A model generated the notes under the pieces. That model was not told the DNA's origin. It was given only the letters and a program-made list of their open reading frames with translations, and searched no databases. Both the position numbers and the translations under genes were made by a program. Shown here piece by piece: positions 15,301 through 59,782 of a stretch of 64,000 bases of DNA. Each line of letters opens with the position of its first letter. The stretch's first letter is position 1. This stretch comes from Cinnamomum chago (taxonomy: Eukaryota > Streptophyta > Magnoliopsida > Laurales > Lauraceae), in contig CP142451.1 in the NCBI GenBank assembly GCA_038049695.1, positions 69,642,001-69,706,000 on the forward strand, read 5' to 3'.

Positions 15301-18300
15301 TTATGATATCACTTTATGATGACGTATAGTCGAATGAAAGCTTTGTTATATATTTCCCCAATCTTAAAAGAAAAATCAGACATTCAGACGGCATTTAGTT
15401 CCTTTTTTTAATGATAATATTAAATCCTTTTTGAATTGGAGTCCACATTATTAAATGCTTTTTTAATTGGAGTTCACATTATTACACAATATTACCCACC
15501 AGGTAAACAATAATATCCTTTGGGCAGGCTTGATTTAAATAAGTCATTTGAACTTTTAAACTTATCATGTCCGTTGTAATAATAGCATAGATTAAGACAT
15601 CTGAAACTCTCTACCCTTCTCAACCACTTAAAAGCCAAAATTCAGCATTCCAGGAAAAAAAAACCTCAGCAAATGCAACTGTAACAGAAGAACAAAGATT
15701 GTTTAAGAAGTCATAATTCAGCATATTCTTAACTCCATTCGACGATAATATATATATATATATGTAATATTGAATGGTACAATAATATACTGAACTGAAG
15801 ATAACTATAGGCCAGTTCAATGTAGACAAGAAATTGTCAGTATGAACATGATGCAGGTGCTCAAAGAAGCATCGCGTGGGGCCTCATGCAGCCTGCAATC
15901 CTTATACATACCCTAGAAGCCAGGAAGAAAAGATCAATTACGCATGACTGATCAGGAATCAAGAGGAACTTAGGAAATCCCAAAGGCCTCTTCCATATTT
16001 TAGTTGGAACTCTATACTTTATTTGCTGAGCTGAGTAGGTTTAGTGTTTGCGTTGCATGTGACAAGATATAGCAATAGTCGGATCCACAAGCGACACATT
16101 CTGTATATGTTTTTTTTCCAATTCTCTTAATCCCCTTTTGTGCATTATCAGTGATTCACAAACTGATCATTAACAGAACTGCACCTTAGAGACAAGTTTC
16201 ACCATTTCTCCGTATCTTCTTGAAATCCCAATGCTGGAGGGGACTATAAGATCCCAGTCCTAATTAGTAGCAATTAGTGTTAATTAATTTTTCTTAGGTG
16301 CTAATTAAGTTGAATTTAGTGTTAGGATAGTTTTAATCAGTTTGGCTGAGATTGGGCTAAGTTCGAGCTTAAAAAGGGGTAAAATTGTCATTCTGCCATT
16401 CAAGGGGGTATTTTGGCTATGAGAGTGGCTACCTACACACTCCATTTCCCTCTCTACACTGCATTTAATAAAAAAAAAACACAAAATAAAAAAAATCCTA
16501 AACTACCCTCATCCTCTCCTTCCCTCTCTCTCTCCCTTCTCCATGTTGTCCACCGCCCGCCCGCCCCACGCCCGCCCACCCTCTCCCCTTCCTCTCCTCT
16601 TCCTCTCCCTCTCCATTTCCCTCTCTTTCCCTCTCCCTGCTCGTCGCCGCCCGCTGCCCGTCCACTCTCCTTCTCCCTCTCTATTTCCCTCTCCCCGCTC
16701 CTCACTGACCGCCGCCCGGTCACCCTCCCCTTCCTCTCTCCCTCTCACAGTGGACAAGCAAATGGAGAAGAATCAAATGCTTTGGATGTATAAAAATAAA
16801 AATAAAAAAATTTGCCATTGAAATCGGCGAATCCGATTCGTTCGGCGTCACAGGGCCGAACAAATCGAGTTTGTTCGGCGACACAGGAGTTTGTTCGGCC
16901 CTGTAACGCCGAACGCATCGGATTCATGGCAAAACTCGGTTTGTTCGGCCCTGTAACGCCGAACGAATCGGGTTCGCCGATTTCAATGGCAAATTTTATT
17001 TTTTTTACATCCAAAGTATTTGATTCTTCTCCATTTGCTTGTCCACCGTGAGAGGGAGAGAGGATGGGGAGAGGGTGACCGGGCGGCGGTCGGTGATGAG
17101 CGGGGAGAGGGAAATAGAGAGGGAGAAGGAGAGGAAGAGGGAGAAGGAGATGGAGAGTGGGCGGGTAGCTGGCCGCGACGAGAGGGAAATAGAGAGGGAA
17201 ATGGAGAGGAAGAGGGAGAAGAGAGGAAGGGGAGAGGGTGGGTGGGCGGGCGGGCGGTGGAGAACGTGGAGAAGGGAGAGAGAGGGAAGGAGAGGATGAG
17301 GGTAGTTTAGGAATTTTTTTATTTTGTGTTTTTTTTTTATTAAATGCAGTGTGTAGAGAGGGAAATGGAGTGTGCAGGTAGCAGCTCTCTTTGGCTATTT
17401 TCATAAATAGGTCAAATTCTGACTCCTTAGATATCTTAGATTATTCAGAGTAACCTTTGTGTTCAACTCATAGCCATACAATGCCCAGAAACCCATTGTT
17501 TCGCAGTTTCATGTTGACTAGGGGCATAATCGTCATTTTTGTAAAAAAAAAAAAGAGTTTTCCCTTGGAACCTCGAAATGTCATTCTTGGGCGCATTGGA
17601 AAGTAGATTTAATTTGGAGGAACTTTCGTTCTTGGACCAAACCCATTTGGCGCCCGAACCCCTTCGTTATTAGCCTTTGTTTTACTTCGGTTGTGGGGGA
17701 CGTAAGCGTCATTTCTGAAATTTGTGAAATGTATATACATAGAGCAGCCATCTTCTTCTTATGATTCTTCTCTCCCATTTTGTTCTTGCCTTAACCCAGA
17801 CGACCAAAGCAGCGACCATTCCCCACTTCTCCCCCTCCATTTCTCCACCAAATCGGAGCTTTAACCCACGAGAAATCTTCCCCATCTCACCACAATCTTA
17901 GCAACCCTCTTTTCTCCCCAATCGGAGCCTAGCAACATCCATTAGTGATCAAATTTTCTTTGTTAGGGCACCAATAGGTGAGATCTCATTTCCATCTCTT
18001 TGATTTGTGGTTTAGACTCCATTTATGCCCTAGATCTCGACATGCATGATGAGCAGCCACCTTTTCCCTCGTTTTCCAATTTTTGTAGGATTTTGAATTC
18101 AATTTTTAGGGACTTTTGGGAAAAGAGGGTTCTTAGCAATAGCACGTGTTTCAGAGGTTATTTTCAAGGATTTTGGAAGTTTAAGGAAAGTGACAATCCA
18201 TGATTTGATTCCATGCATGTTTGGTAATTCAATTTCAGGTATTATGCATGTTAGAGTGTTTTCCATGCTCCATTGCATTCTAAACAACGGAAAGTTAAAG

Positions 18301-21300
18301 GAGAAACTTGGAAATGTGTTTTCTCGGCCTTAGAAACATGGTGGACCCTTAGAAATGAAGCCAAGAGGAGAATCCTGAGATTCACACAGTTCAAGGGACG
18401 TTCGACGGTTCACTCCAAAACCAGTTGGCGGTGCGACCAAATTGGTTGAACCGCCGACTGAAGGAACACTCAGCAGCTGCATGTCAAACCGCCAACTGAC
18501 CTGCAAAACCTCTTTTTACTATATTTTTGTACTTGGCCTTGGACTCCTATGTTGTGGGCCCTTGTAGGCCCTACTTGTCAACCCTTAGTGGACTGAAATC
18601 CGAAACTTTTATGAATCTACCATAGGCTCTAAAAGGAAATTTCAAAACCATATTTTGCGTTGGTAGCGTTGCCCCCACACCCCTAGCAGGGGCACAGAGC
18701 TCGATCCGAGTACCGCTGCGGTTTATCGCCAGTAGGTACTTAAGTTAGGATGTGGACATAAACCGTTCGGATTGACCAGTGAAGCTAAGTTTGACCAAGA
18801 GTAAGTAATATTGAGCAAATTACATTGCGAGTTGTTCAGATGCATGTGTGGTACAATACTATGTCATGGGTATGCAAGTGTGGGACCTTAGTTGTTAATC
18901 ACCTTCAGAGTGCCAAGGTAGCAACGTGCTATGGATAACTAGGATCCCATGGCTACATAGAGATGAATGGCCTTGCACTTACATGTAGATGACAACTCTG
19001 CTCCATTGAATTGGTAAGGTATTCCGCCATTCATAAATTAGTACGTATTTAGCCCTATTGACATAAATGGATTTAAATCACCTTTGTTTGAGGGAAGTTG
19101 ACATCCCCATGTGGTTATGGATTCACCGGGTGATAGATGGGTATCACCAAGAGTCCGAAATGAAATTCTTGGAAATATAGACCCATGGGTGAAACCCTTA
19201 TCCCTGGCTAATCCCGAGTCACATCGAAGAGTCCAAAATGTTCTACTTGAGTCAGTCTTATGGCTTAGGATGCATTCACATGCCCTGTTTCTGCCTATGG
19301 ACTTGACAGGACCCAAGGGATGGTCAATTGGCTGGTGTGGCTCGCATCTTATGCAATGCACCCTTCCAAGTAGATCAAGTCAAACCCTCTTTCCACCCAT
19401 TTTAGGGCCAACTCCAGCATAACGAAATGCTGCACGATTTTATGGTGGGTTAAGTATGATGGAATCGGGTTACCCAAGACCCGCCAAAGCATATGCATTC
19501 TAAGACCCACATGTTTGTACCTTATTTCATGTTAGAAATGTCATATACACAGGTTCAAACTATATTCCATGTTTTATAAGCTCATGCGGCATGTTATGTT
19601 ATGTTTCATGTTATATATACTCATGCAAGTATCATGTTCTAAGTGTATGGCAATTATGTACATGGCTCCCCTAAAGAAAGGCAAGTGGGTGTAGTGGTAC
19701 GACTTCCCTACGCAGGAAAAGGCTCGCACATGGGCCTGAGTTTGCGGAGTTACCTTAATTCCATATGTTATTAAGCACGTTAAGGTCATGCCTTGGGTGT
19801 AAGGCTCGTGGCTCCCTTGTAGAAGGGCAAGTGGGTATAGTGGAACGGCTTGCCTGCATAGGAAAGTGCCCACACATGGGCTTGGATGTTTGGAATTACA
19901 TCCCTGGCGCATGGTTCATACATGTCATGCTCATGATGCATATTTCCATTTCTGCTATTGTATCATAAGCACAGTTACATTGTATTGCACTCACATGTTA
20001 TGCTACTCATGTACATTGATACTTATGCTACTGCACGGTTTATTTTCACGTATATTTTATGCATCTGTACCTTACATTGCTACAGATGTATTGTCACAGC
20101 CCCGCCCAACTCAGCATGATATTGTCCACTTTTGCCCACGTGCGCGCGCGAGGACTTCCCAAGCGGTCACCCATCTCGGTACTACTCCCCCCCAAGCACG
20201 CTTAACTGAGAGTGTTTATGGAATCTGAGATCGCAAGACTTTAAAACGCGTCATCTTTGGGATGTTATTGTCCCACTTAACTACCCATCATCAGAGTGGC
20301 GCATAGGGGGTTTTGCTTGTCACTAGGCAGTGGGCAGATCGTGTCTCTTGGCTAAAGTGCTCCCTGATGCAACGCGTCATGTTTAGTTAAGATGGGGTTT
20401 GACTTATAAGCCCAAGGTCAGGACTTGAATATTTTCAATGTGGGACTTGGACAAAGCCTCACGGTGCTACCGAAGCACTCCACCCTTACCCCTGCGGATT
20501 CCCCTTTCTTGGCTCCTAGGATCACTTGACCTGATCTTGCCTCAAGGGATTACACAGGTGGATCGGGGTCTCACATGTATTCAAGCATGTTTTATAACTG
20601 TTATATTCATATGGATTCATAATTATGAATTGTCTACGCTCTTAGTGTTGTACGTATTGACTCCGCTGCTGGTGAGCAGGAGATTGATTTGTGGTGGTTC
20701 AAGAGACTTTGCAAGGCTTCACATAATAGAGTGCAGACAATGTGATATGAGCATCAGACTAGCACAAGCATTGGATTGAAATCTTTAAAAAAATGATGAC
20801 TTCTAAAAATATTAAAGTACAGATCAAGGCTTTTGACCCCCAACCTTCCCCTTGATTAGTGTGGCCCCAGAAGGGAGTCCACAAGAAGGTTCCATGAGAG
20901 ACATCCCCCAAGTGTCAACATCATCATCACCATCACCATCATCGAAAACTTATCCCAACTATGTTAGGTTTAGCTAAATGAATTCTATTTTCCATTTCAA
21001 TTTATCAGAGGCCAAACCTCGAATATGTTGCACTTCATCAGATCTTTCCTTAATAATTTCCATCCATGTCATCTGCTCCTTTACTTTTTGGGGCATCAAC
21101 CTAGATAGAGAAACTTTTCCTCACCGGCCATGTTGGTGGCTGGTATCGGACATATCCAAACCATCTCAAATGATTCTATGCTAATTTATCCTCTATTGAT
21201 TTACCCCTAAATGCTCCTGAAAGCACTCATTTCTAGTTCTACCTTTCCTATTTCTACCATTAATCCATCTCAACATCTCATCTATATTGATGCAGGACAA

Positions 21301-24300
21301 CTAAAAATTCTAGCCTAATATGGAATGATGATATCAATCTGAAAATTAATAATTAATGCTGAATGATAAATCACACCATCCATCCACACTATCTAGGATT
21401 GAAATTTAAGTGAGTAATTTGTAATGATCTGAGGCAATGTCAGAAGTCCTGCAATAAATGCCCCTCTAGTAGTGAGAGGGAAGGATCCTAATGGATGTTA
21501 GAACTTTCACTTGCATAGGGAATAGCCAATTCATGTGGATTACTTGTTCCCGTTTGTGATGATTTAAACGAAGGGGTCGGCTCATCTTGGGTGCAATTAA
21601 CAATGTGTAATATGGGGCTATTTATCAAATTCAGATCTGAACTTGGTGTTCCCACAACACTTTCAAGGCCCAAATTAATTTCAGATTTATGGGATTAAAG
21701 TGAATCAAGGGTTGCGATGGTGAAACAATGGAAAATCTGCCAAATAAATATGATGGATCAGGTTCAACCAATGGATTTGGAGGGACTAATTGGTTCAATG
21801 GGCTGTTTTAGGCTTGATGGAAGTTCAAATACGGCTGGATAGGGGTTCGTCCACTAGATCTTGAAGATCTATGGCTGGCGGCTGGATAGGGGGTCGAATG
21901 GTGGGAATAGGGGTTTTGATGGTCGGATGATGGGATATTGTGGCTGGTGATCGAGAACTAATGGTTTGGAGGTTAGTTAGAGTGGTGATGATGTAGATCT
22001 AAGGGCTGGTGGTTCAGATATAGAAATCTAGCGGTTGGATCTTCGCATGGGCAGCAAGAAACTCCTAGATCTGAAAGTTTAGGGTTGGTTGATGGGGACG
22101 ATGATGTAGGTCTAAAGCTCATGTGAAAGGACAACATAGGAAGGAAAATAGTTGAAGATAAGTGGAGTACTTGTCATGGGCTCTCACCAAACTCCAATCC
22201 GAAGGCGTTACCGAAGATCCCATGAGCACAACAATAAAGACTCAAGGAGGACTCAAAAGAGATTTTTTTTTATTCCATAGCAAAGCTGATGTACGAAGAA
22301 ATATGCCATGTCACTTTCATTGCCATGTGGGCTCTTATTTGGCAACATTGGAAGACCAAGTGGCAACATTGGATACCTAAGGCTTTAGCCAAATTAATGT
22401 GGTTTTCAATAGTGGTTGGCATTATTGTGAATTTCTTGGAACTCCTAGTATTTATTTTGCCTAGTAACTAGTTCTTAGTAAGTCGTGTCTTATTTTGGGA
22501 GTGTTAGTTTACGCCTAGTAAGTTGTGGCATTGCATATAGTTAGCTTTGGGATTATGCATGTATTCATGGAGGAAGAATGCTATATAACTTGTAAGAGTC
22601 CTATGGTTGGCAGATTATGTTTGTTTCATTTTGATTAATGTTAATTCAGTGGAGAGCTTGACTCCTCTCTTTTATCCTTTATTATCTCTTGTTGCGATTG
22701 TTGTCTCTTCTTGCTGTCTCGATTGTATCTTTCCCTCATCATTTGGTATCAGAGATTGTGTTACGCTCTTAGATTGATTTCCCCACCTACCATCTTCCTT
22801 CAAGGCTGCAAGAAGAGGTCGTGGTGGATGTGGCAATCGTATGATGGGAGATGCGAGAGATGGAGAACTACATGCACTTCAGAGACAAGTCGAAATATTA
22901 ACCATACGGCTTGATCATCAAGGAGCTCATAGCGAGCATGGACAAAACCTTGGTTATTCTAGTGATGGGTCCAACGTCACTGATGAATTCTACAAACTAA
23001 TGGTGCATAGTGACATTCAAGAATGGAGGACTCAATAGGTGAGATTTCAAAACCATCCACAACTTGTTCCCAAGTACAACTAATGGAATATCATACATTC
23101 TTCTTGGTTGAAGGAATAGATGAAGACAATTCACATCGGCCATTAGAACTTGTTCAAAATTATGTTGATTGGTCAAAGCCCCTTTATTCAGATGATGAAT
23201 ATGATCCATCCATTTATGATCAGTGTCAAAATGGAGAATTATCCCATGATGTCAATGAGAAATTGTTCGATGATGATTATCAAGAAGATATTGATGATAT
23301 ACCCATCTTTGATGTGTATCAAGATGAAGATGTTAATGATACTTTCACCTTCAATGTGTACCTTGATGACGGAAGCTTTGATGTGCACTATGATTCCATG
23401 TCTTACTGCTATGATCATGAGGCAAGCACTAAGAGAATCATAAAGCACCTAGATTTTCATTCAAGGAAGATGAACGCATCAAGCAACATTGTTATGAAGA
23501 TCCATTTGATGAATCCTATTCAAGCAGATATCACCAGACATTCCTTAATAATTTAGTCATGCGTCAATGGATCAAGACACATTGGGCAGATTGGATGGAT
23601 GTGCTAAACGGTTTTTGCAAGTACACCACCCAACAACAAATTCAAGTTCAGGACGTTTTAACAAGATTTGTAAAGATGCAGATCGAAAGCCAACCAATTC
23701 ATATTGACGAGTTGCAAGGGGAACGAAAACATAAAAGAAAGCAACACATAATTAAAGTCGACTCGAGGTCGAGTCTTTTTCAAGAGGGGGAGTATGATGT
23801 AGGAAGAAAAATGCCGTGTCACTTTCATTGCCATGTGGGCTCTTATATGGCAACAATGGAAGAACAAGTGGCAACATTGGATACCTAAGGCTTTAGCCCA
23901 ATTAATGTGGTTTTGAAAAGTGGTTGGCATTATTGTGAATTTCTTGGAACTCCTAGTATTTATTATGCCTAATAACTAGTTCTTAGTAAGTTGTGTCTTA
24001 TTTTGGGAGTGTTAGTTGATTTCCTAGTAAGTTGTGGTATTGAATATAGTTAGCTTTGGGATTATGCCTGTATTCATGGACGAAGAATGCTATATAACTT
24101 GTAAGAGTCTTATGGTTGGGGGGTTATGTGTGTTTCATTTTGATTAATGTTAATTCAGTGGAGAGCTTGACTCCTCTCTTTTATCCTTTATTATCTTTTG
24201 TTGTGATTGTTGTCTCTTCTTATTGTCTCCATTGTATCTTTCCCTAATCAAAAGCATAGCATGACATGACATGAAGAAGAAAGATACAATAAAGGCCTCT

Positions 24301-27300: not shown

Positions 27301-30300
27301 TGACCGTAGGGGTTCGCTCATAGCAGGTGGGAGGGGAAGAGAATAGGAGAAGAAACCGCTTAGCTCATCGGAGGGAGAAGAGAGGGGAGCTTTCCGGTGA
27401 TGGTAAGGGAAGAGAGGGGAGCTCGCCGGAGGGAGAGATGGTCACCGGTGATGGGGCGGCTGTCAAGGTTCGGTTGCAGCAAGTGGGAGCGAAAGAGAAG
27501 AGGAGAAGAGAATAGGAGAGAAGAGGAGAGGAGGGTGTTTTGGGTATTATTGGGAAAGTGGGTGTGCTCAACAAAACATGCAGGTGCAAATTGAATTTCC
27601 CCAATTTGTTTCCAAAAATAACATAAGTTATATTATGGTTCCACATTTAACACTTACAAACACTAGAAATAACAAAATATGATGCAAGAGAAGAGGGCAG
27701 GGAAACCAAAACGATAGTGTTAACTGTAAGATCCCGGTCCCATTACTATTTAATTATTATATTTTAATTAGAATTTTACTATTATTGTAATTAAATGTAT
27801 TTTAGTTATTTAAGTGGTTAGGATTAAGTGGGGCACACGTTAGATTAGGATAAGAGTTTAGAGATAACTGGGTAGATGACCTAACCCATAGTTTGACCCA
27901 ATAACTTAAGCCCAGAGGATATTCTCTTAACCTAATCCCTTTTATTACGAACGCACGTCCTTATCTCTCCCCAGTTATCTCTAAACTCCTCCCGTTCCTT
28001 TTCGTCTTCTTCCTCTTTCAACTTCCCAAGCTATTGCAACTTTAGGATCCAGCCATCAGAATCAAGATCTGAAGATACCATCATTCTTGGTTCAACTTTC
28101 TTATCACAGGTAACCATCTCCTCAAACCATTGGGAGTAGATCTGTACTCTTAGGTTATATTCTTAATCTTTCCAATGCTAGGTTTTGGGTAGGAATACCA
28201 TAGATCTGTTCATCTGAACATCCTTATTCCATCTTCTATGTCAGATTAGTGTTAGGATTGTGATCAAGCGCCCCGGTAATCTCGGTTTGGGTATTGGTTA
28301 GGTTCTTTGCACTTTTCTTCAACCCCTAGAAAGGCAAGTACATTATCATGATTTGATATTAAATATGTGTTTTGATCTTTGATTCCCATCTAATGCATAT
28401 AGATTTGCTTAATTGCCCTTTTCTAAATGATAATGGTATTAGGGATTTGAAATGGATATTTGGGTTATTGGTATTTGGGTAATGAAAATGTGGATTCCAT
28501 CATTTTTCTAATGGAATGTGATTTGTACGGATTATGGTTGGATTGGAACTCTCTTTTGGTAAAGGGAGGAAAATGGAGGAAAAAGGGGAAAAACCCCAAA
28601 TTTCTGTGATTGGACGAACTGGCCAACGAACTAAATGTCAAACGTTTGAACGTTGCCATTGAACGTTCAAACGTTCGAGTTCAGACTCATCTGGGCCAAA
28701 GGGGCAGAAACATTAAACGTTCGAACGTGCCTCATGAACGTTTGACTTTTCCTCGCCTCCGAGCCAAAATCCCGAGGTATCGAATGTTCGAAGGTGCCAC
28801 ATGAACGTTCGAACGTTTGAAACCCATCGCGTCTGAGCCAAAAACCCGAGACCCTGAACGTTGGAACGTTGGTTTTGTAGGTTCAAACGTTCAGTGTACT
28901 TGGGCCATTTATGGTTTCTTTTCCACAATTTTGGCTCTGTATCGTTTGGGTATTTATGGCATCAGGTATGGGACTTCATATGGATTTAATAACCTTAAAT
29001 TATCTACCTGTACTTGACATAAGGACCGTCTTTGGGCATACGGTATCTTATGGACGTAGGATTCAAATACCTGTTATAATTTTAATGAACTCTAACGAAA
29101 AAGGTTCAATACATCTCTATTGGAAATCCTTCATTGGATCTATGCACCATGAATTGCGAAAGATGTAACGTCCCTAGCTTAAGCATTATTATTGTGTGTT
29201 GATGGGTATATATATATACGTATAACCTTAGGATTGATTCATATCTATGTCTTGACCTTCGCATGCATATCTTGGTTTAGGTTATGTATTCTCTTAGATG
29301 CATACCCTATTATGTGTTATGGACTATGAAGTGGCTTGAAAAATTATGTATGACGATTTGATTATGATATAGAATATGGAATGGCCAGCACTTCATTTTG
29401 ACTTAGGACTCTTGTGTCGGAGCATTATTAATCGGGTCTATTATGCTTGTCTGTTTATGTTTATGTGGGTCATTTATGGACGACTATAGATCGATATATG
29501 GACGGTTGATCACCGATGTGACCGGATCACTTATAATCCGCTTTGAATGTGAACAGGTTATCCTGGTTTTTAATTTGATCGGTTTATGACCACCGATGTT
29601 ATGAACGGGCTCTCCCGATTTATTTAGGGCTGACCACCCACAACAGGGACACTTGTCTTCGTGTGAATTATACTGCTCCTTTTGCTTTATTTGGATTATG
29701 TATACGTTCTTTCTTGTCATTATCATTGTCATTACTTCTATATGATCGCACTTGTCTATATTCATCTCGTTATCGTATTTAATTTCAAATTATGATTATG
29801 TTCTTGCTATTTACTTTGTAATATTTGGTGCATAGGTACCGAGCCCTACTTTACCGAGGAAACGGAGGAGGATCAAATGTTTCAAACGTTTGAGCCAACT
29901 GACGAACTCGAGTGAGATGCTGGAGATGGCTTTGGAGCCGTCTGAGCCAGCACAAGAGAGAACGTCATCTTAGAATTATTTAAATGAACTTTCTTTTAGT
30001 GTTGAGACCTCTTCTAGAAATTATTTAATTTATTCTGCAACTTTAACTATTATTGTTTTATCTGATTTTGGGTTGGGTCTCAATTATGAACCTTGAATAC
30101 AAATTGAATAAAGCTTCCGCTGCATTTAATGAAATTTATTTTGACTCACCACGGGTTGGAATTTTATGTGGGTCCACTTTTGGAAGCTTGTGTTGTATTA
30201 AACACAGGAAATTTGAATTTAATTTAATTTTTCACTTTTTTCCTCAATTTTTATTTTGGGGACGTGACATTAACGGTGAGTGGATGGGATCATTTTAGAG

Positions 30301-40148: not shown

Positions 40149-41561
40149 TGTAAGATCCCGACACCTAATTCTTGTAATTAGTGGTAATTAAATTTGTGTT
40201 AGTTTAATGAGGGGATTTGAGGATATTCATCCTAGTTTGAGGGCTAGAATAGATTTCGAATATCTTTGGAAAGTTTTGAGAACCTTTGAACCTAGTTGGA
40301 CAACTTTAAAGGCATATTTGTGCTTTTGTGAAAGATTGGGGGTTATTCATAATTTTTAGAAATTGTGTCCTTGAGCCTGTTAGATAAAGTACGTCGTTCC
40401 CAACAATTTCCGTGTTCATCTCATAGCCAGTCGAAGTGGCGAAACCTTTCATTCCACAATTCCTTCGCATGTAGGGGCATAGTCGTCATTTCTAAAAAAA
40501 TTGAGTCAAAACTCTAAAGTTCTCAAAATATATAATTCTTGTGCCCATTGGAAAGTATATTTAAGTTCGTGAACATCTCCCTGCTGTATTGAACTCATCC
40601 AAGGACTAAATCTCAAGTTATTGGCCAACCAATCCATTTAGGTAGTGGACCCCACTTCCACCCCTTTATAAAAGTTGAACCCTCCTCCCATCCTCTTCTT
40701 TTCTCTCTTACACACAACCCAGCCATGGTAGTAACTTCTATTCTATCTCTCCTTCTTCCTTCTTGCCTCCAAGCTCCAAATCTAAGAAGCTACTCGCCAA
40801 ATGAAGGTCACCATTGCGCTCGTCTTCGTCTCCTCCTCCTCTAGACGCCTTTTCAACACAATGAATGCTTGGCAACCCCTTTACCCACCAATTTCCCTCC
40901 AATCAGACCCTTATAGGTGAGTTGCCTTCATTATTTTGAATGTACAGCACTAGAGGCCCCAAATCCTTGCATGCAAGCCATGCCATCGTCTTTTTACTAA
41001 TTTTCCATTTTTGGGGTATTTAATGGGTTATGTTTGGGGGGTTTTGTTTTAGGGAGTTCTAGCAACTTTGGAGGTTATATGTGGTGTTCTTGGAAGCTTT
41101 GTAACATGATAAAAGTGTTTAATTTGGATAACATCACATACACGCTTTGCTTCCATGATTCCTACGTGTTACTCTTTGTTGGATTCCTAGCTTAGTTGAA
41201 TTGGTCATTGTTTAAATGATAGATGTTAGGTGCTTAATTGGTTAGTTAGTGTTTAAAAATGCTTAAAAACCCCATCCAACATTTCCTCAAAGGAGATGGA
41301 AGAGAAAGACCCGAACTAGATTGAAATGGGCAAACCACCAACTGTGCACTTAAGACGGGCAAAACCATAATTTGTTTGCATGGCTAGCCATAGCGCAATC
41401 GACGGTTTGAGCTAGTACACTCGGCGGTTCACCAAGTTTTGTCCCTTTTGGCTCCGTTTGACCCCAAATGACTTGGATGCCCCCAATTCCTCCCTTTTAG
41501 ATGGTAGCTCATGCCTAAACACATTCTAACCTTATTGGACACTCTAATTAAGGGACCCATA

Positions 41562-45539: not shown

Positions 45540-45888
45540 TGTAAGACCCCAACCCCTAGTTCCTGAGATTAATACTAACTAAGTGTGTGGTTAGTTCACT
45601 AAGTGGTTTTAAACGCTAATTGTCTTGCTTTAACGGTTAGAATAGATTTTGAATAGCTTTGAGAAGTTGTGAGACTCTTTGAACCTAGTTTGAGACATTT
45701 TGGGTCCTTTGTGTATTTTTGGGAAAGTGTGGGGGGCTATTTTCAAATTCCGAAAAATTATGTTCTTGAGCCCATTTGATAGAGAATAACACTTCCTATA
45801 ACCTTTTTGTTCAACCGGTGTCCATTCGAAGCCCCCGAAAGCAATTATCTCATCATTAGGGGCAAAACTGTCTTTTTTTTACTTAGAA
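45540..45888 (+). mobile_element. Long LTR A2 (TGTAAGATCCC family), 5' part
   Basis: TGTAAGACCCCAACCCC, then AATAGATTTTGAATA, TTTGAACCTAGTT and GGGGCAAAACTGTC, parallel to copy A1. Cut at about 45889 by a MULE terminal repeat. Its remaining part is not visible in the window. Confidence 0.65.
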
Positions 45889-46829: not shown

Positions 46830-48830
46830 AGATATTCACTAGCCGAGAAGCCCTAATTAATTAGGCTCGTGAGGTTGGGAGGAGAAATGGTTTCATTGTT
46901 GTGATTAAGACATCAACAGCACCCAACAGGAGAAATAAAAAACCAAGGCTGACCCTTGGGTGTGAGAGGAGTGGGTCTTATAGAGACACGAGGATATAAC
47001 TAAAGATGGGACCGTTGGGAAGAAATTGAAGCAGACTGGTTCGAAAAAATGTGGATGTCCATTCACGTTACAAGGCAAAGTGGTTGGCTCAAATGAGGAA
47101 TGGATGTTGCATGTAGACACGAGGATATAACTAAAGATGGGACCGTTGGGAAGAAATTGAAGCAGACTGGTTCGAAAAAATGTGGATGCCCATTCACGTT
47201 ACAAGGCAAAGTGGTTAGCTCAAATGAGGAATGGATGTTGCATGTAGTGTGTGGTGTGCATAATCATCCAGCTGCAGACTTTCTAGAAGGGCACTCATTT
47301 GTAGGGAGATTAATAAAGGAGGAAACTTCATTGCTGGTAGACATGTCCAAGAATATGGTCCGGCCAAAGGATATCTTGGTGACACTGAAACATAAAAATG
47401 AGTTAAATGTAAGCACAATGAAGACTATTCACAACCTATTGTTGCTGTAACATACAGATATAAAAGCATCATTTGAAAAAAGTAAGACGGTTGTGCAACA
47501 CAATTTCAAGCCTTCTGAATTTAAAGAACTTTGTGGGAATATTTCTATAAGTGCATTAGAGAAAATATTGGCTGAGACGAAACGAGCCTCGTCAATTGGT
47601 ATTGATAAAGATGCTTGTGGCTGTGTACTTCGACACACACAAGGTCTATCTTGTGCTCATGAGATTGCAGAATACATAAGTGTTGGGCGCCCTATTTCTC
47701 TAGATTGCACACATATGCATTGACGCAAGCTTGACTTGCTATCTACCGCTTCTGCCCAGGACTCTAGTGTCAATTTGGATTGCATGCCAAAGATAGATTT
47801 AATCGTCGAACAGTTTAGGAGCTATGATTCGAGAAAGAAGTTACAGATCTTGGAAAAGCTTAGGGAGCTAGCAAAGCCTGATACGACCTCATTGATCGAG
47901 CTAGATTCGAAAACTAAATATAGGGGGCGTCCCAAATTGAAATTACATAATTCTACTAAACGTGAACCCTCTTCCTTTGATTATGTCGAATCAGCTCAGG
48001 GTAGTTACTCTCCTGTCTTGAAGACGAAAGAGACTATTGTCAATAGTGGGGCCTCCTTGGTTCCCGTGAAGAGGCTGATGCCTAAGCAAAAGGTCAGTCG
48101 CACCCGAAATTTGAAGCCAGTTTCTTATATTAACACACTCCTAGCTGGTTTAACGCTTTATATTCATCGTGTAAAAGATGTCAATGCGGATGGCAATTGT
48201 GGCTTTAGAGCCATTGCAGGGTTGATGAGACTTGGTGAGAACTCGTGCAACAGGTACGGAAAGATCTTTCTAGAGAGTTGGTGACTCATGCAGAACACTA
48301 CAGACAATTATATGGATCACACCAAAGGGTTAATGAACTTCTCCACATCATATCGTACCAAGGGGATTGCCCTCCATATGATTGGTGGATGATGATGCCG
48401 GACATGGGACATCTAATTGCATCGCACTATAACGTTGTCCTATACCACCTGTCAATTGAGCAATGCCTGACTTTTCTTCCTCCTCGATCGGTGCCTATTC
48501 CTATTGCTGCTAGACGGGAGATCGCACTCGGTTTTGTCAATCAGAACCACTTTTTCAGGTGATAATAGTAGATTCACCTATCATATTTTGCTTGAAATGC
48601 CGTGACTCACTTGAAATCCTTGTTATGTGTAGGTTTTCCTCGTACAAGGTCATCCAATTCCACCCATTGCTACTAATTGGATTCGTCACCATCACCCTTC
48701 TACAGATGGTTGGGTTACAACTTATCAATCTCGGATCCAACATTTCAGAGAAATTATTAGTCCATCAGTTGCCACATGTGAAACCATCGATCTGGAATGA
48801 TTGTTATATTTTATAAGGATGTACAAGGAT
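46830..48830 (+). pseudogene. MULE transposase derivative: FAR1 N-terminus + SWIM + OTU cysteine protease
   Basis: Parts in order: a FAR1-type DNA-binding region (46833-47450; IFTSREALIN, EVGRRNGFIVVIK, then KKCGCPFTLQGK and VCGVHNHPAADFLEGHSF), a SWIM finger (47607-47680; CGC followed by CAH) and a linker with RGRPKLKLHNSTKRE. An OTU protease follows, with the catalytic Cys in VNADGNCGFRAIAG (48180-48222) and the His in NQNHFF (about 48537-48557). The DDE catalytic core expected between FAR1 and SWIM is absent: the text jumps from STMKTI to IKASFEKSK within some 50 bases. A 131-base tandem duplication (46984-47114 and 47115-47245) repeats part of the FAR1 region, and the OTU part changes frame near 48240. 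So this copy cannot encode a working transposase. FAR1/SWIM with DDE is the normal MULE transposase; OTU fusions are known from plant MULEs. Confidence 0.8.
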
Positions 48831-49009
48831 CCAATTTGTTAAGAACTCAATGAAATTGAGCCTTGTTGTAACTTTTTCCACTATTTCTTTTTTAATAAAA
48901 GAACATTCCATATATCTTCATGGTGCATGGCACATCACTTAAGTTGTAGTTGCTAACTGCGGATGACAATTTAAATTGAACGATCCTGATATTCCGGAAA
49001 ATAACAGTT

Positions 49010-49180
49010 TGCATGGCCCTGTATACCCGAGAAATAACATTTTGCATGGCCATGTATAATCGAGAAATAACAGTTTTCATGGCCCTGTATAAACCGAGAA
49101 TTAACAGTTTACACGGCCCTGAGACGCCAAGCAGTTTTTATGGTGTCGGCCCTGATACGCCGAACACAAGGTCATCAATG
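49010..49180. repeat. GGCCCTGTATAC-type short repeats between the two MULE genes
   Basis: Four to five spaced copies of (GCATGGCCCTGTATACCGAGAA)-like units about 40 bases apart, ending in GTCGGCCCTGATACGCCG. They resemble the GTTCGGCCCTGTAACGCC words of the fold-back MULE. Confidence 0.7.
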
Positions 49181-49439
49181 TTTGGCACCAACATTGGCAA
49201 CTTTGTTCGTACCAGTTTACAAAACTACATCATCCATTTCATCTAAATGCTATGCAAATAAAAAGATACTATCATTTTACATCAATACAAACTGCAACAT
49301 TAAAAAAGATATCCATAAAGAGGCCAATGTATGTCAAAAGTTTTACATGTACCATCTTTGGTACCCAAAAAATTGCATAAACTCAGTTTACAATCTTTCA
49401 AAAGAAGTACTTCAACTCGAGCCACAAAAAAATACATAC

Positions 49440-51874: not shown

Positions 51875-54017
51875 ATCTCCCACTTAGACTCAAAACCATG
51901 ATGACATGTATTTTAGCTCCATGCCTTCCACATGACCATCAAAACTCTTTCTTGGTAAGCTCTTTGTAAAAGGATCTGCCAGGTTGTCCGCCGATGCAAT
52001 TCTAGTGACAATTATATTACCCCTCTGTACGATTTCTCGTATGAGATGATATTTACGCTGGATATGCTTACCCTTCTTATGCATCCTGGGTTCCTTTGCA
52101 TTAGCAACTGCACCGGTATTATCACAATAAAGTATTATAGGTGATTTTACCGAATGCACCACTTCTAGATCCATCAAGAAGTTTCTGAGCTAAACTGCAT
52201 CCTTGGCCGCATCAGAAGCTGCCACATATTCGACCTCCATGGTAGAGTCAGCAGTATATGACTGCTTGACACTCCTCCAACTTATAGCTCCACCTCCCAA
52301 GGTAAATACAAATCCTGAGTCAACTTTCTAGCATCATTATCTGACTGGAAGTCCGAGTCTGTGTACCCAATCGGTATCAAATTCTTGGCCTGGTAAATCA
52401 GCATATAATTTCTAGTCCTCTTAAGGTACTTAAGTATATGCTTTACCGCAGTCCAATGTTCCCTCCCTGGATTAGACTGGTATCTGCTAACCATACCAAG
52501 ATAAAAAAAATATCAGGTCTAGTACATAGCATTGCATACACGAGGCTTCCCACCGCTGAAGCATAAGGTACTTCATTTGTTCTATCTCATCAGGTGTCTT
52601 AGGACACTAATCCTTGGATAAAGTAATTCCATGCCTGAAAGGAAGAAATCCTTTCTTGGAATCTAGCATGCTAAAATGGGCAAGAATCGTATCAATATAA
52701 ACCGCTTGAGATAAGCCCAACATTTTTTGTTTTCGATCTCGCATGAGATTGATCCTTAGAATGTGACAAGCTTCTCCTAAGTCCTTCATATCGAACTGAC
52801 TGCTCAACCATACTTTGACCGAAGACAACACCCCGACATCGTTTCCAATGAGGAGTATGTCATCTAAATAAAGTACTAAGAAAATCACCACATTTCCGCT
52901 GCACGTCTTATACACACAGGGTTCATCAGGGTTTTGCTCGAAACCATAAGATTTAATGGCTTGATCAAAACGAATGTTCCAAGATCTAGATGCTTGCTTA
53001 AGTCCATAAATGGACTTCTTAAGCTTGCACAACATGTGCTCACGGCCTTCAGCTACGAATCTTTCAAGTTGTACCATATAGATACATTTATCAAGATTTC
53101 CATTAAGGAAAGCTGTCTTGACATCCATTTGCCAAATTAGGTAATCAAAATAAGCCGCAATGGATAAAAGGATCCGGATGGATTTCAGCATGGCTACTGG
53201 CGAGAAAGTCTCCTCATAATCGATACCTTCTTTCTGAGTAAACCCTTTCACAACAAGCCTAGCTTTGAAGATTTCAACCTTTCCATCCACCCCTCTTTTC
53301 TTCTTGTAGACCCACTTACAACCGATAGGTTTTATCCCCTCTAGTGGTTCTACAAGATCCCAGACTTGATTATGGTACATCGACTCCATTTCTAATTTCA
53401 TAGCTTATTGCCACAGTTCTGCATCTTTGTCCTTGAGTGCTTCATTATAGTTACAGGGTTCGGTATCTAGCTCATCAGGGACTCTATCATATGACTCTCC
53501 CAAGAACATATACGATTCGGGTTGACAAACAACCCTCCCACTACGACTTGGCACACCCTGTGTCTGTGTATGAGTAGTGTCACGCTGTGCTGAAACTAAT
53601 CCTGGTGTGCCACCGTCGACATGCTAATCAGGCTGAGCACCCATCATGTTGGTGGTTTCACCTGTAGTATCATCAGCTTGAGGTGTTTCCTCCTGTGCTA
53701 TTAGCGATGGAAAATTTTGGGTAGGTCTTTCTTCCCTCAATTCCTCTAGAACAATTCTGCTTTTGGGTTTGTGGTTCATTACATAGTCCTCTTCTAAGAA
53801 TCGAGCATTGGTGTTAACAATGACCTTTCGATCTTTAGGATTATAGAACAAACCACCTTTCGTTCCTCTGGGATATCCAATGAAAATGCAAACTTCCGTT
53901 CTTGGTTCCAATTTATCTGCATTCCCTTTCAACACATGTACTGGAGTACACCAAATCCGAACATGCTTTTAACTGGGTTTGTGCCTAATCCATAATTCCG
54001 TGGGTGTAGTAGGTACT

Positions 54018-54154
54018 TTTTTTTTTGCTAAAAGGTCATTTGAATTAAGAGAAAAGAGAAAAGAAACAGAGGCTAAGAGCCCAAAAAGAAGCTCTGGGAG
54101 CAACAGCAAGGGAAGAGAAACCAGCAATCCAAAAGCACATTACCAGCTTAAGAA
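54018..54154 (-). mobile_element. Short LINE 3'-end retroposon in the copia integrase region
   Basis: 137 bases starting with a T run (A tail on the minus strand), flanked by exact TAGTAGGTACT at 54007-54017 and 54155-54165. The body resembles an L1 3' end, as at 7021. A clean 5'-truncated insertion. Confidence 0.8.
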
Positions 54155-54691
54155 TAGTAGGTACTGACTTAGATGGAACTAAGTTTAGAATATATGCAGC
54201 CATTTCTAAAGCATGCCCCCAGAACGAAATAGGTAAATCAGAATAACTCATCATTGACCTCACCATATCCATAAGAGTCCTATTCCTCCTTTCTGCTACA
54301 CCATTTTGTTGAGGTGTACCTGGTGCAGACAGCTTGGATGTAATCCCCTCTTGCGCCAAGTAATCCCTAAATTCTCCAAAGAGGTACTCGCCACCACGAT
54401 CAGATTGTAGTGTTTTGATACTCTTACTTAAACGCTTTTCCGTTTCCGACATTTCCAAGCACAAAAAGGAATGACAACCAACACAAGATGCCTAGCTAAC
54501 ATGGTCAAGTAGGATCCTTTTGTCTTCATGATTGCCACTTCTTCAAACATGCGCTTCACAAAAGGGGTCCGAGGGTGTCCCCCGGCGGGGGTCCAGGGGG
54601 CAGCGCCCCCGAAACAAAAATATTTTTAACATCAAGTTCTTCCTTCGAAATCGAATTTCTGCCTTCAGAACCTATGCCCCTTCTTAAGAGA

Positions 54692-54921
54692 TTACATTGA
54701 GTTCTAAGCCTCTTGCTGAACGGAGTTCACATGCTATCTCAATATAATTACCTCTCCAAGAAAAAAAATTACATTGAACCCTAAGCCTCCTGACGAACAT
54801 AATTCACATGCTATGTCAATATAATTACATCACCATAAAAAAATTTACATTGAACCCTAAGCCTCCTGACGAACGGAGTTCACATGCTATGTCAATATAA
54901 TTATATCACCATAAAAAAAAT
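54692..54921. repeat. Three-copy ~77-base tandem repeat in the copia leader
   Basis: Units starting TTACATTGA at 54692, 54769 and 54845 share CTAAGCCTC, CGAAC-GAGTTCACATGCTAT and TCAATATAATTA. They lie just downstream of a GC-rich stretch (CCCCCGGCGGGGGTCC). Confidence 0.85.
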
Positions 54922-55489
54922 TTACATTGAACACGTAAAACAGTAACCATGAAGTTAATTCATGGGATCCATTCACATAACATACACACATGGTGACCAT
55001 GATAGCCAGATTAGTAACTCAGTTGCTGCAAAACAAGGGTTAGATATTTCGCTGCAAAACAGGGGTTACTTACAACAATAGGAGACCATGTTTCCTTATA
55101 TCAACCTATGATCTTACTATGTTTTCTTTAATCCATACGCAGTATCAAGATCGGCTCCGATACCAATTGTTAGAAACGAGTAGAAACCAGGATCTGTAGA
55201 TATTGCGTATGAAACTCCGGGATCCTAACCCTAGAGGAGGGGTGGCGGGGGCGGGGGGGGGGGGTGAATAGGGTGAGTTACAATATGTGACCAATTATGA
55301 CAAATTTTAACTTCTTTAAAAATAACTAGTCACAAGTGATGATAAACAAACAAAATGCGGAAGCTAACAAAAGTAATCACCACAAAGCATTCACCATCAC
55401 ACAAAGATTTATAGTGGTTCGGCCTCAATGCCTACATCCACTACAGGCTTGTGATCTAACATCCCACCGGATTTCCACTATCTATGCTT

Positions 55490-55665
55490 TTCAATAGGCT
55501 AAGCAATAACCTTTACAATGTTGTTTTTCTAGGCTAAACAACAACCTCTCAATGTGCTTTTCTAGGATAAGCAATAACCTTTACAAGATGCTTTTCCAAG
55601 GCTAAGCAATAACCTCTACAATGTGCTTTTCTTAGGCTAAGCAATAACCTTTACAAGAAAAATAT
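55490..55665. repeat. ~40-50-base tandem repeats in LTR E
   Basis: Four to five copies of the word AGGCTAAGCAATAACCT with variants, followed by TACAATGTGCTTTTC. Confidence 0.8.
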
Positions 55666-56786
55666 TTCTCTTAAAATAGTGTCTACACAAACACTAAAAG
55701 AGATACACTTAAAGCTCAATTACAATGCCTCTTAATCAGGCGGATATGAAGGTGAAAAACTAACTCACACAAACACTAAATGAGTGCAAAGGTGTATGCT
55801 CATGATGTGTGTGTGTGATAACTTCAATCAAGTTAAAAAGATAAGCTCAATTAATATATGCTCAAAGCATTTAAAAGTTTAAGGCACATAAAAAGATTTG
55901 ATTGAAGTGAAATGCAAATCACACGTATGAATACGAACTTGTTAATGAAATGAAAATCAAAGGTTCATAAGTTGTATGAAATTAATTAACTTAAGACATG
56001 TGATGCATGTGCAATGTTGTTTTCAAAACTAAACAAATTTAACTAAGGTTTAAATGAATGAAAACAACAAATAAAGATTCAACTAAGTAAATGAATCATG
56101 CTATAAAAGAAATCAAAGATTTTGGCTAAGCATGATTAATGAAGATTTTAAAACAACTTGGTTTGAAATCAAGGGTGAAGAATCCAATCCAACATAGATC
56201 AAAGATTAAAAGAAGAATGGATTCAACACATCATAGTTATCATGCTAAAAATCATTTACCAATAATTTAAACAAAGCATATAACATATGATAAATAAAAG
56301 TAAAGCTTACTTAGAGATTTAACTTCATTAATCCAAGCTTTAGCTTCCCTAATGACCCCTTGGCCTCTCTTGGTTCATCCCCCTTTCCTTGTCTCTAAAC
56401 TTCTCAAGAGTGGTTCTTTGTTCCACTTTGATCCATACTTCTTTTCCAAAGGAATGAACTTGTATTTATACTAAAAAATTGAGTTCCTGCGTCTCCCCAG
56501 TCGACCTGCACTCTTCCCGATCGACCTGGCCTTCAACGGTCATAAATTTGACCGTTTGAAAAATAGGCACAACGGCTTTTTTCCCGGTCGACCTGCTGTG
56601 TGGCCGGTAGCAGGTCGACCCGGGCCTGAGACCAATTTCCCCTAAAAATTCATAATTCAAAGTTATTTCATGAGGGGACTTTTGGCCCACTAATCAAGCT
56701 TGGAATCATATTTTAAATCAAACTAAGAGGTTTAAAAACATGAAACATAAAATGCCTAAAATGATTTGAAAGATTTAAAACATAGG

Positions 56787-59782
56787 TGTCGCGACCCCGG
56801 ACCGGGCCCGCAGGACTAATCTGGGATCGGGACATTAGAGAATAATTAATGATAGAGTCTACATCCACAATATAAAATTTATTTAATTTCCCACAGGTGT
56901 CCGCGGTGAGGATATCAAGACCTTGCATGAATATTTCTTTTTAGTGCGGAAGCGTGTAGTAAATCAAATAGTTAGACTATCTCTAGTCATGCAAGCATTA
57001 ACATCAATATCAAACTGTATCAGAAAGAGCAATGATCTATAGCATGTTTCCCAAAAGTTGTTAAAGTTAGATAAAATATCATTTAGTTACATTCCCCAAA
57101 ATTAGAGGCCAACAAAGGCCAATATTACAAAATAATAACCCAAAGAATAGTTAATAAGTCCTCCCCAAAATGTTACGCCTCTTGGCAACCCGATGTCTAC
57201 ATGACATCGTCAGCACGCCACTCAACTAGAGGCTGCAGCTCGCCTACCGCCTCCTCCGGCTCCTCCTCAAGGAAACCAGCAACGGGACCTGAGTACCAAA
57301 GCAAAGTATCAGACACGACGGTCTGGCAAGAGAGTGAGAAGATACAACAACATGTAATAGATGAAATATCTCGAAAAGCAAGGAAATCTGTTAAAGCAAG
57401 AACTCTCATAAAATAGATAAATCATTTGCCAGAAACATGTAAACAAGATAAAACATATGAGGTAACCAAGGAAATCGGGAATAACAAGATGGCAATCACA
57501 TAAAGCTAAGTCCTCTGTCACTAAAGTGACAACAGTATCACGGGACGTTGATCTCAGTCACACAAGGTGAGGAGAAGCAACGTAAACATATATACAATAT
57601 AAATATACGGGAACGGGACCACGGTAGCGAACCGGGTATCGGGACGGGACCACGGTAATGACCGGGTATCGGGATCCAAACTGCAGCTGGCGGGACGGGA
57701 GAGGGATCTCCAAGTCGGTGGATCAAACCGACAAGGTATCCAAGCTTAGTGATGCCGACACATAGGTTAAATAACACATCGATACATATGCAAGTAAAAC
57801 AAGTACAAGTAAAACAATGAACGGGCAAGAATATTCAATGTATAACTTTCATTTCATATCGGGCAATACTCTTCGGGACAAGTCAATGCTACTATCATGC
57901 TTTCGGGAAAACAACTCATGACATGTAAATCTTGGAAACAGAGAAATATGATGAATTATACCAATTCGGGAAAGATAATGATTTTAAGATCTATTTGAGT
58001 GAATAGGGGTCCCGTATGTCGAACATAGATATGACTTGGTACTCCTTGAGTTTGAAGACATTCCAGGCTCCTTATGCACTTTTACTATTTTTAAAACTTA
58101 ATATGAGCTTATGGTTATAACTAGATATTATGATAGGAAAACAAGACTATAAACGGTCCACCCTAAGTAGGATGTCAACCCGGAACCACCGAGCAACCCA
58201 CTCAGTCACCGAAAGGAATAGAATTCGCGATACCCAAGGAAATAGACTTTGCATTTAGGTATGAAGAGGATATCGTGTCGTTCCATCCCGTTCAAGATTG
58301 AATCGATTGAACTTCGATGCATCCCGGACCAACCGTGAAGAGCATCGGCTCAAGACACTCTCACATATGGTCAAGTGAGTCCAAGGAGGGTAGCCAAAGT
58401 CCACAAAAAAAAAAAAAATTTCAAAACCCACTCGGTCCGATCGATCGGTCGAAATTTCTGTACCAGAAATACGCAGGGTCCGATCGATCGGCCGATCGAT
58501 CGGTCCAAAAAGCCTTACTGTTAAAAGTCAGACCGATCGATCGGCCTGTAGGTCCGATCGATCGGCACTGGGCGTGAAGCATGCCCGGGAACTTGATTTT
58601 TCTCCTTTTTGTTTCCTTTCTTTCCAACACCTCAACAACCAAAATCAACTATGAACAAGGAGACTTAAACACATGATTCCAAGACATTAAATGAGGCTAT
58701 CAAGATGTGTAAAGATCATTTATTTCAACCATGGAAAAATCAATGAAAACAATCAATGAAAGCATGAAAACCATAAATGCATCTCCAAACCATTTCAAAC
58801 TTAAAAACATCCAAACATTCACTTGCCTCAAGTCTTCAATTAATGATATTAAGCTCTATCAAGTCCTCCAAGAAAATAGCCCAAGCTACAAGGCAAAATC
58901 CCCAAATAAAACCCTAAAATGGGTTACACAAAGAACGAAAATGAAATAACTTCCAATAATGCAAATGTAGCTTCCCTAAGGCTAGAAGATCACTAATCTA
59001 GGAGATGAATAAGATCACTTACTTGGATGACCTTCAAATGAGAAGAACTAGTTCAAGGAAGATCTCAAGATTGATGGGTTCCTCCAAAAATGGTATCAAG
59101 ATGAAGCTTGTGAGATGGGGAAGAGATTGGCAATCTCCATTTTGAGTTTGGTGAGCTCTTGGTGAGGATTAGAGATGAAGAAGCAAGAAGAAGAAGAGAA
59201 ACTTGCTAGCAAAACCCTAGACTCAAGTGTGCTGGAACATGAAAATGGAGGAAGAAGGGAAGGGTTCCTCTTGTTAACCATTGAGAGGTTTGGGTCCCAC
59301 AACTTAAGAAGCTAAATGGACTGAAATCATCTCTCTCGGGTCCTCGGATGAATTCGACGAAGAAGGAAGAAATGTTCGTCGAAATATCTAGTTTCCAAAA
59401 AGTGTATGTTTCGCAAGTTTTGAGAATATTAAGTTTTGGGTACAGATTTTGTGTGCAATGACTGTTTTACCCTCAAGGCTATGAAATCGGGTTTCGGGGC
59501 CTCGAATGGACACGGGATCAACATGAAAGTTGTAAGAATCCACAATATGAATGCAACGGGTCAAAAACACAATTCACAACCAATCGGGAAAATCTCGCAA
59601 GAAAATGTAAAGCCGAAAGGGAAACCCCCAAAGGGCCCCACAAGCTACCAATCACTCTAAAAAGCCCAAAACTAGAAACAAGGTTATTCCAAACCAAACT
59701 AGATCAAAAACACTACTCAAGCTTAGCACTAAAACGCAACTTAATTAGCACTAATCGGGTTCACTCGGGTCGGGGTCTTACA
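56787..59782 (-). mobile_element. Solo LTR D (TGTAAGACCCC family), target duplication ATAGG
   Basis: On the minus strand it runs from TGTAAGACCCCGACCCG (59782) to GGGGTCGCGACA (56787), 2996 bases, with ATAGG at 56782-56786 and 59783-59787. It has the same start as LTRs A, B and C. Clusters of GGTCCGATCGATCGG lie at 58430-58570, the equivalent place (about 1.2-1.35 kb from the LTR start) to the modules in A1, B and C. A two-copy GGGACCACGGTA-CCGGGTATCGGG repeat lies at 57610-57675. No coding region. Confidence 0.88.
58430..58570. repeat. Palindromic CCGATCGATCGG cluster in LTR D
   Basis: Five copies of the 12-base palindrome CCGATCGATCGG (two overlapping in one block), most extended to GGTCCGATCGATCGG. 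They are separated by unique spacers of 10-40 bases. Confidence 0.92.

Follow-up and report, generated by a model that had tools for sequence, protein, structure and literature searches.

Why should related long terminal repeats (LTRs) carry, at one place, clusters of short palindromes whose sequence differs from one LTR to the next? The question is raised by a 64,000-nucleotide stretch of the Cinnamomum chago genome (contig CP142451.1 of assembly GCA_038049695.1; hereafter the window, G000:C1:69642001-69706000). Its LTRs of one group, A1, A2, B, C and D, open with TGTAAGA(T/C)CCC, and an earlier note had described in four of them a cluster of palindromic or reverse-paired words, here called a cassette, with a motif that differs by copy and may be homogenised or turned over in place. 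Searches of the whole genome (1.06 Gb in 14 contigs) gave a different answer. The motif is family-specific and follows the clade, not the copy, and between clades the block carrying it has been replaced behind a conserved frame. We hold it to be an evenly balanced proposition that each cassette is a cluster of cis-regulatory sites, dyad-symmetric and particular to its family, in LTRs of a chromovirus-like group of Ty3/gypsy elements. The pattern suggests that the palindrome block would act as an exchangeable control switch kept by selection.

Counted genome-wide, the D word CCGATCGATCGG has 15,936 sites where its reversed control has 24; for the C word AACGTTCGAACGTT the counts are 49 and 10. 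Two words from LTRs elsewhere in the genome, TTCGGTTAACCGAA and GTTGGCTCGAGCCAAC, occur at 125 and 110 sites against 1 and 0 for the reversed words. A query with cassette D returned three to five exact CCGATCGATCGG units at each of 30 loci, D included, drawn from 40 scored of 2712 first-look candidates. With cassette C as query, 29 of 30 loci (28 distinct places, one being C itself) held one AACGTT-type 8-mer three or more times, and the remaining locus (L029; L numbers denote loci of these searches) held it twice. These results contradict a copy-specific motif. A cassette-blind query, the first 676 bp of LTR C, found a C-type cassette within 1.5 kb in 12 of the best 40 of 688 candidates, at +901 to +1079; this set includes C, and presence was judged from cassette-match and AACGTTCGAACGTT lists, so that decayed cassettes such as that of L089 were missed. 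Cassettes of C type were present in 11 of the 21 copies with a frame identity of 85% or more versus 1 of the 19 below, and in 5 more of the 21 a C-type match lay 2 to 9.8 kb further on. One shared motif decaying with age, the case that the earlier note had set against its own proposal, is what families C and D contain internally, and it leaves replacement between clades unexplained.

Such replacement was detected by comparing sister clades. LTR C and the L085-type LTR match at 79.7% over C 1-722 and at 82.6% over C 1310-2026 (1-698 and 1380-2026 under stricter scoring). Their middle blocks, of about 590 and 930 bp, show no match, and hold AACGTTCGAACGTT and GTGGGNCCCAC-type words respectively. 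In a second case, L090 shows 93-95% frame identity with L081, L084 and L091 (the GGTCCC group) up to about +690. Past this point L090 has no match to L091, only 73 bp at 72% to L081, and a match to L084 only at +1463. Its block is similar to those of L085 and L097 (78% over +933 to +1459), with which it shares only 79% in the frame. Global alignment of L090 with L091 gave 95% for the frame and 66% for the block, against 63% for shuffled sequence. Since the C and L085-type blocks, like those of L090 and L091, show no match within similar frames, at least two block changes have taken place without a change of frame, one of them recent. Between sister clades, then, the cassette does evolve far faster than the frame around it while its place stays fixed, as the earlier note had claimed. 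With a block change behind 94% identical frames, it can be tested directly how retrotransposons alter their regulation; the idea that they do so has, to our knowledge, been based mostly on Ty1/copia elements like Tnt1.

Within the window, clusters were compared with dinucleotide shuffles by the largest two-strand word cluster, using 100 shuffles for exact words and 20 with mismatches allowed. Those of C and D were reached by 0/100 and 0/20 shuffles. In C, AACGTTCGAACGTT is exact at 28804, differs by one mismatch at 28641, 28662, 28716 and 28857 and by three at 28783 and 28878, and nine sites lie within two mismatches of a 12-base word. The B cluster is weak and not significant alone (12/100; 5/20), with AACCGCCAACTG exact once (18487) and one mismatch away at 18422 and 18449; exact CAGTTGGCGGTT is absent from the whole window. 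Among 15 search partners of B, however weak its own cluster, at least two near-matches to GGCGGTTTGGC, a word picked by eye, stood at the same place in 12 (two of which, L033 and L046, overlap), one in 1 and none in 2, and for this reason the B cassette looks real and old, decayed and shared with relatives. The A1 units, one mismatch away at 41333 and two at 41418, form an ordinary cluster (10/100; 9/20), and A2 is ordinary too (100/100; 20/20). A1 was rejected as an independent cassette, being not above chance and matching only itself when used as a query. The clusters described earlier therefore stand for C and D, and in decayed form for B, but not for A1 alone. Their proposed place, 0.9-1.35 kb into the LTR, is roughly constant: about +914 to +1167 in C, +1217 to +1346 in D, +1185 in A1 and, with a nested stretch left out, +1195 in B. 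Relatedness of the flanks was confirmed for A1-A2 (69%), A1-B (63%), A1-D (58%) and A2-D (68% over 120 bp), but not for LTR C, since its comparison with D, A1, A2 and B gave no match at E 1e-4.

The same place was inspected in 26 further LTR stretches picked by start pattern only, 20 of them heads and 6 later stretches (five with GACCCC starts, one with AACCCC). They came from the first listed of the 401 places in the genome that match the longer start pattern TGTAAGAYCCCRRYMCC; its reversed control matches 2. Of these stretches, 6 (L083, L086, L089, L101, L103 and L105) have a cluster of short palindromic or reverse-paired words, that of L089 being a decayed C cassette. Another 9 held sparse GTGGGNCCCAC, 2 had a motif within an insert and 1 an inverted duplication. 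No cassette was seen in the remaining 8 (L092, L093, L094, L095, L099, L100, L102 and L104), which we read as carrying other inserts or as too short. Outside obvious inserts, clusters beyond all 20 shuffles were those of L083 (CAAACAGCCGAG), L086 (GTTGGCTCGAGCCAAC), L101 (the D motif), L103 (GCACAACCGG) and L105 (TTCGGTTAACCGAA). With exact words only, L086, L101 and L103 stood at 0/100. Eight motif types were found in total, C, D and B included. A CGG-CCG core is present in D and L105, as half-sites in B, L083 and L103, and absent from C and L086.

Is the motif kept, or does it merely persist? Variants were sorted into private and shared ones in 29 D copies (L048-L077 minus L058, the partner LTR of L057; D included). 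Motif sites showed 17 private and 1 shared variant versus 120 and 75 at all other sites (Fisher p=0.004, a value that takes variants as independent though related copies are not), and p was 0.019 against spacers alone. That dependence counts against a need for the motif, as do the result for CpG sites alone (p=0.11) and the choice of copies, which are the best matches to a cassette-bearing query; this choice lowers variation there, in motif and spacer alike. Across 30 D copies, private mutations hit 17/1733 cells of the CpG-rich motif, compared with 20/2300 for the spacers and 98/17,325 for the flanks. New mutations thus arise normally in the D motif and are hardly ever inherited. Since motif mutations are almost never inherited, propagating D copies appear to need the motif, and this constraint makes the protein binding site suggested by the earlier note plausible. 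The longest stretch of the D LTR without shared variants, 79 bp (shuffled mean 34, 95% point 44), lies over the first two units. The other islands above 44 bp are at an acceptor-like CAG (74 bp), at 381-436 (55 bp), at 1071-1121 (50 bp) and at the word AGGCAAGT (50 bp). In family C, non-CpG differences amount to 3.9% in the motif, a figure that misregistered repeats may flatter, 14.1% in cassette spacers and 8.4% in the rest of the LTR. Protection of motif CpGs after insertion was considered for D, where 8/417 had changed against 169/2243 elsewhere, and rejected: private CpG mutations are alike (12/867 motif cells vs 14/1018 others), so that the difference reflects inherited variants. In the older family C, motif CpGs decay like others (105/398 vs 352/1227). 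Integrated copies thus give no sign of the protection that a silencing-escape module, also raised in the earlier note, might bring. Comparing private with inherited variants offers a simple route, from genome sequence alone, to the LTR sequences that propagating elements need.

These variants also bear on neutral turnover of short repeats, in which slippage and founder effects would have made the clusters and amplified families would have copied them without any function. Inheritance of the motif by descent within families agrees with such turnover, exact units do vary from three to five among D copies, and the hypervariable block could be a freely evolving spacer. We nevertheless consider it unlikely, as private mutations strike the motif no less often than other sites whereas inherited ones are nearly absent, several families carry clusters of similar form at one place, and palindromes separated by unrelated sequence are not simple products of slippage.

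A cis-regulatory cassette, the reading that we prefer, would work as follows. Each family would hold one palindromic or reverse-paired word, which usually contains a CpG and in many cases has a CGG...CCG core; a few repeats of it would make up a block beginning about 210-405 bp past the conserved landmark AGGCAAGT. This landmark was found in 15 of 25 LTRs scanned, about 260-405 bp before the cassette start in C, D, L083 and L086; the B cassette starts, by eye, about 210 bp past a mutated landmark. A dimeric host DNA-binding factor would bind the units and drive or boost LTR transcription from within the transcribed leader, and the cassette may lie in a leader intron running from AG|GCAAGT to a conserved CAG. 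Selection on propagating copies would keep the motif, as in family D, and leave the spacers to drift. From clade to clade the entire block is replaced, as between C and L085, placing a new palindrome in an old frame, presumably by template switching during reverse transcription. Because TATA-like boxes precede the cassette at +475 to +518 in A1, L083 and L086, and because the long-LTR rice element Retrosat2 (LTR over 3 kb, U3 1-244) has a 2-kb R region so that its mid-LTR sequence is transcribed (PMC3485330, available text), the cassette probably lies in the transcribed part of the LTR. It is conceivable, though doubtful, that this Ty3/gypsy group has a docking place by the splice-donor-like landmark where control blocks swap, each array addressing a different host dimeric factor. 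A single recombination step would then give a lineage a new activating signal, with promoter, splice sites and coding region left as they were. The 15,936 copies of one 12-bp palindrome, presumably mostly of family D, would be a large supply of regulatory sites if bound by a host factor.

Further observations weigh against cis-regulatory sites. A strict pattern for the L083 motif matched L083 itself only and a strict L103 pattern matched nothing, the patterns being in our judgement too strict to reveal family sharing for these two. The cluster of L105 was reached by 4/100 shuffles with exact words, and that of L083 exceeds shuffles only with mismatches allowed (100/100 with exact words). The nine GGTCCC-group LTRs speak for the cis-regulatory reading in that each has GTGGGNCCCAC one to three times (up to one mismatch) at the cassette place, 17 matches in total where 200 shuffles average 0.30 and never exceed 4; but the word was picked by eye after inspection of those LTRs, which are related, and it passed the de novo scan in no single LTR. 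The eight motif types have no common core and name no single host factor. Finally, a search of C and D gave no TATA-like box ahead of the cassette, so that the position of the transcription start is presumptive.

Alternatively, it may be RNA structure that is kept, with transcript hairpins or kissing loops serving dimerisation, packaging or host small-RNA production. Any self-complementary word would then do, and this freedom of sequence would account for motif switching. Seven cassette stretches (two of C; D, B, L086, L103 and L105) give better folds than shuffled sequence does on average (z -2.95 to -6.67), with 0, 0, 3, 1, 0, 0 and 0 of 200 shuffles reaching the folds of C, C, D, B, L086, L103 and L105, but any palindrome cluster yields high z-scores. 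The position downstream of TATA-like boxes in A1, L083 and L086 is consistent with a transcribed structure, as are the maize Sirevirus palindromes that attract small RNAs (PMC10760457, available text). Half-sites in family C, however, show no excess of compensation: among 54 two-mismatch units there is 1 mirror (complementary) pair against 4.2 expected, and with up to four mismatches (212 units) there are 5 complementary versus 3 non-complementary mirror pairs. Family D, moreover, keeps the exact word, beyond what symmetry demands. We regard conserved RNA structure as rather unlikely.

Less probable still is an anti-silencing system like that of VANC, in which the palindrome would be the address of a family-specific protein that removes silencing, motif and protein changing together. 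VANDAL elements of Arabidopsis carry short motifs in non-coding regions that change quickly among related transposable elements (PMC5735166, PMC10398659, available text), and rapid replacement among related elements with constancy within families resembles the target motifs of VANC (PMC5735166). VANDAL elements encode their binder, however, and the available text of PMC5735166 describes VANC21 motifs as tandem arrays in one orientation, not palindromes. No element-encoded binder was found here: in L078, the internal region of one D relative, the sense strand shows only gag and pol, with no extra open reading frame of 80 amino acids or more outside them. The decay of motif CpGs after insertion in D and C, like that of others, leaves no trace of lasting hypomethylation. 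In-place homogenisation, that is, gene conversion between units making each copy uniform, is suggested by the five identical D units of the window but hardly credible, since other D copies hold the same units, mismatches in C are as many within copies (2.592) as between them (2.577; 188/300 permutations at or below the observed value) and 0/19 D variant cells recur in another unit of the same copy, which contradicts this part of the earlier note in both families tested.

Among known systems, two from Ty1/copia elements come closest: the palindromic repeats of Sireviruses and the modular U3 of Tnt1. In the available text of Bousios et al. 2010 (PMC2829016), Sirevirus RM boxes are clustered LTR palindromes with one motif per element, mostly with a CGG-CCG core, whose units are conserved in divergent flanks, number at least eight per element and lie upstream of the TATA box. 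Cassettes C and D are likewise palindromic repeated motifs clustered in the LTR, and the D word and that of L105 (TTCGGTTAACCGAA) would fit the RM table of that paper. Our cassettes differ in their Ty3/gypsy host, as judged from the domains of the D relative, in that some motifs lack CGG-CCG (C and L086), and apparently in lying downstream of TATA-like boxes in the three LTRs that show both (A1, L083 and L086). Against the eight units per Sirevirus element stand five exact ones in LTR D and nine near-matches in LTR C, counted in the LTRs only. RM boxes are called Sirevirus-specific in that text and absent from the classic retrotransposons compared, all Ty1/copia; Ty3/gypsy was not covered. In the Tnt1 superfamily, a U3 regulatory module differs among subfamilies while the rest is conserved, which was read as modular evolution (PMC1838419, available text). 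The present block similarly differs behind a conserved frame and may have a regulatory role, but it is a mid-LTR module, probably in the transcribed part, and belongs to Ty3/gypsy elements; palindromes are not described in that account of Tnt1. For Retrosat2, the main text of PMC3485330 contains no word beginning with "palindrom". Among the open-licence papers listed, titles and abstract openings yielded no report of a palindromic LTR motif for Ty3 elements or chromoviruses, which is weak evidence of absence.

Assignment of the group comes from two D-type LTRs (L057 and L058) that stand 7.97 kb apart with the gag-pol region L078 between them, and the lineage call applies to internal regions beside D-type LTRs only. 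L078 encodes a CCHC motif, aspartic protease, reverse transcriptase, RNase H and integrase. Its pol order is that of Ty3/gypsy, with RVP_2, RVT_1, RT_RNaseH and Integrase_H2C2 in one frame and SH3_Tf2-1 in the next. The integrase core match rve is weak, below its cut-off, and a Chromo match (E=0.00033, 21 bits) lies at the expected place below the Pfam cut-off of 25.1. On these domains, this D relative is best described as Ty3/gypsy and chromovirus-like; the lineage is presumably Tekay/Del. LTR starts also occur in two regular arrays, 12 at a 6.2-kb period (G000:C2:87784712-87852954) and 7 at a period of about 7.9 kb (G000:C1:29219876-29267242), which look like tandem LTR-internal-LTR retrotransposon arrays. 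The features of the window are listed in Table 1.

Table 1. LTRs, cassettes and landmark sites of the window, in window positions (TSD, target-site duplication).
Feature	Position	Strand	Remarks
LTR B, nested inserts	16245..20760	+	first dinucleotide mutated to TA; 3' limit approximate
Cassette B, CAGTTGGCGGTT / AACCGCCAACTG units	18397..18498	+	partly decayed; relatives have GGCGGTTTGGC / GCCAAACCGCC type units
LTR C, solo LTR, TG...CA	27725..30269	+	TSD TTAAC at 27720-27724 and 30270-30274; homologous LTRs found
Landmark AGGCAAGT in LTR C	28332..28339	+	fits GC-type splice donor AG|GCAAGT (putative donor)
Hypervariable block of LTR C	28424..29034	+	L085-type homology ends about +700 to +722, resumes about +1310 to +1380
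Cassette C, cluster of AACGTTCGAACGTT-type palindromes	28638..28891	+	above shuffles; common to relatives
Acceptor-like AG (TTTGGTGCATAG|GTACC), 3' of cassette C	29834..29835	+	putative; comparable position in LTR D falls in a conserved island
LTR A1 head	40149..41555	+	TATA-like TTTATAAAA at +518; end 41555 read as start of a later insertion
Cassette A1, two degenerate B-motif units	41333..41429	+	alone not above chance
LTR A2 head	45540..45870	+	69% to A1 over 1-288; no cassette found; following sequence read as later inserts
LTR D, solo LTR	56787..59782	-	TSD ATAGG at 56782-56786 and 59783-59787
Acceptor-like CAG (TTTGGTACTCAG|GTCCCG) in LTR D	57289..57291	-	within 74-bp island without shared variants; putative splice site
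Cassette D, five exact CCGATCGATCGG palindromes	58437..58565	-	word search and shuffles
Landmark AGGCAAGT in LTR D	58821..58828	-	within 50-bp island without shared variants

Several other palindromic words were set aside in the genome-wide LTRs. TTTCCGCGGAAA in L081 and ATATCGGCCGAT in L096 were not counted as cassettes because they sit in sequence inserted into the LTR, the ACCGGTATCGGCC words of L039 lie beyond its B-like cassette, and CATGTATATGAA of L089 (0/20) and GAGAGATA of L100 (0/100) were above shuffles and not counted; for 31 stretches at 20 shuffles each, chance alone should give one or two passes of this sort. The L081 insert, at +805 to +1305, has the ends GGGCACGTTTGTGTA / TACACAAACATGCCCC and several TTTCCGCGGAAA-type palindromes; it is a mobile element unrelated to the LTR that brings a palindrome array of its own. 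At +640 to +800 of L096, a ATATCGGCCGAT-rich insert breaks the LTR right past AGGCAAGT, and similar words occur in L039 beyond the B-like cassette. In L082, an inverted copy of the LTR head stands behind the head itself (+600 to +1500, by eye); if transcribed, this would give a long hairpin, a possible source of small RNAs.

Other sequences of the window accompany its LTRs. The nested stretch in LTR B at 16430-17390 does not belong to that LTR; by eye, its halves look like near inverse copies, with purine- and pyrimidine-rich arms. The insert behind LTR A2 contains a 131-bp direct duplication (46984-47245). A reading frame at 47724-48284 is, we presume, OTU-protease-like, and we take the surrounding insert to be Mutator-like or FAR1-like; the frame at 52607-53404 is presumably copia-like. 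The sequence that received the D insertion holds, at 56480-56640, two GGTCGACC palindromes and related words, and GGTCGACC resembles the Sirevirus motif CGGTCGACCG given for Vitis in the available text of PMC2829016.

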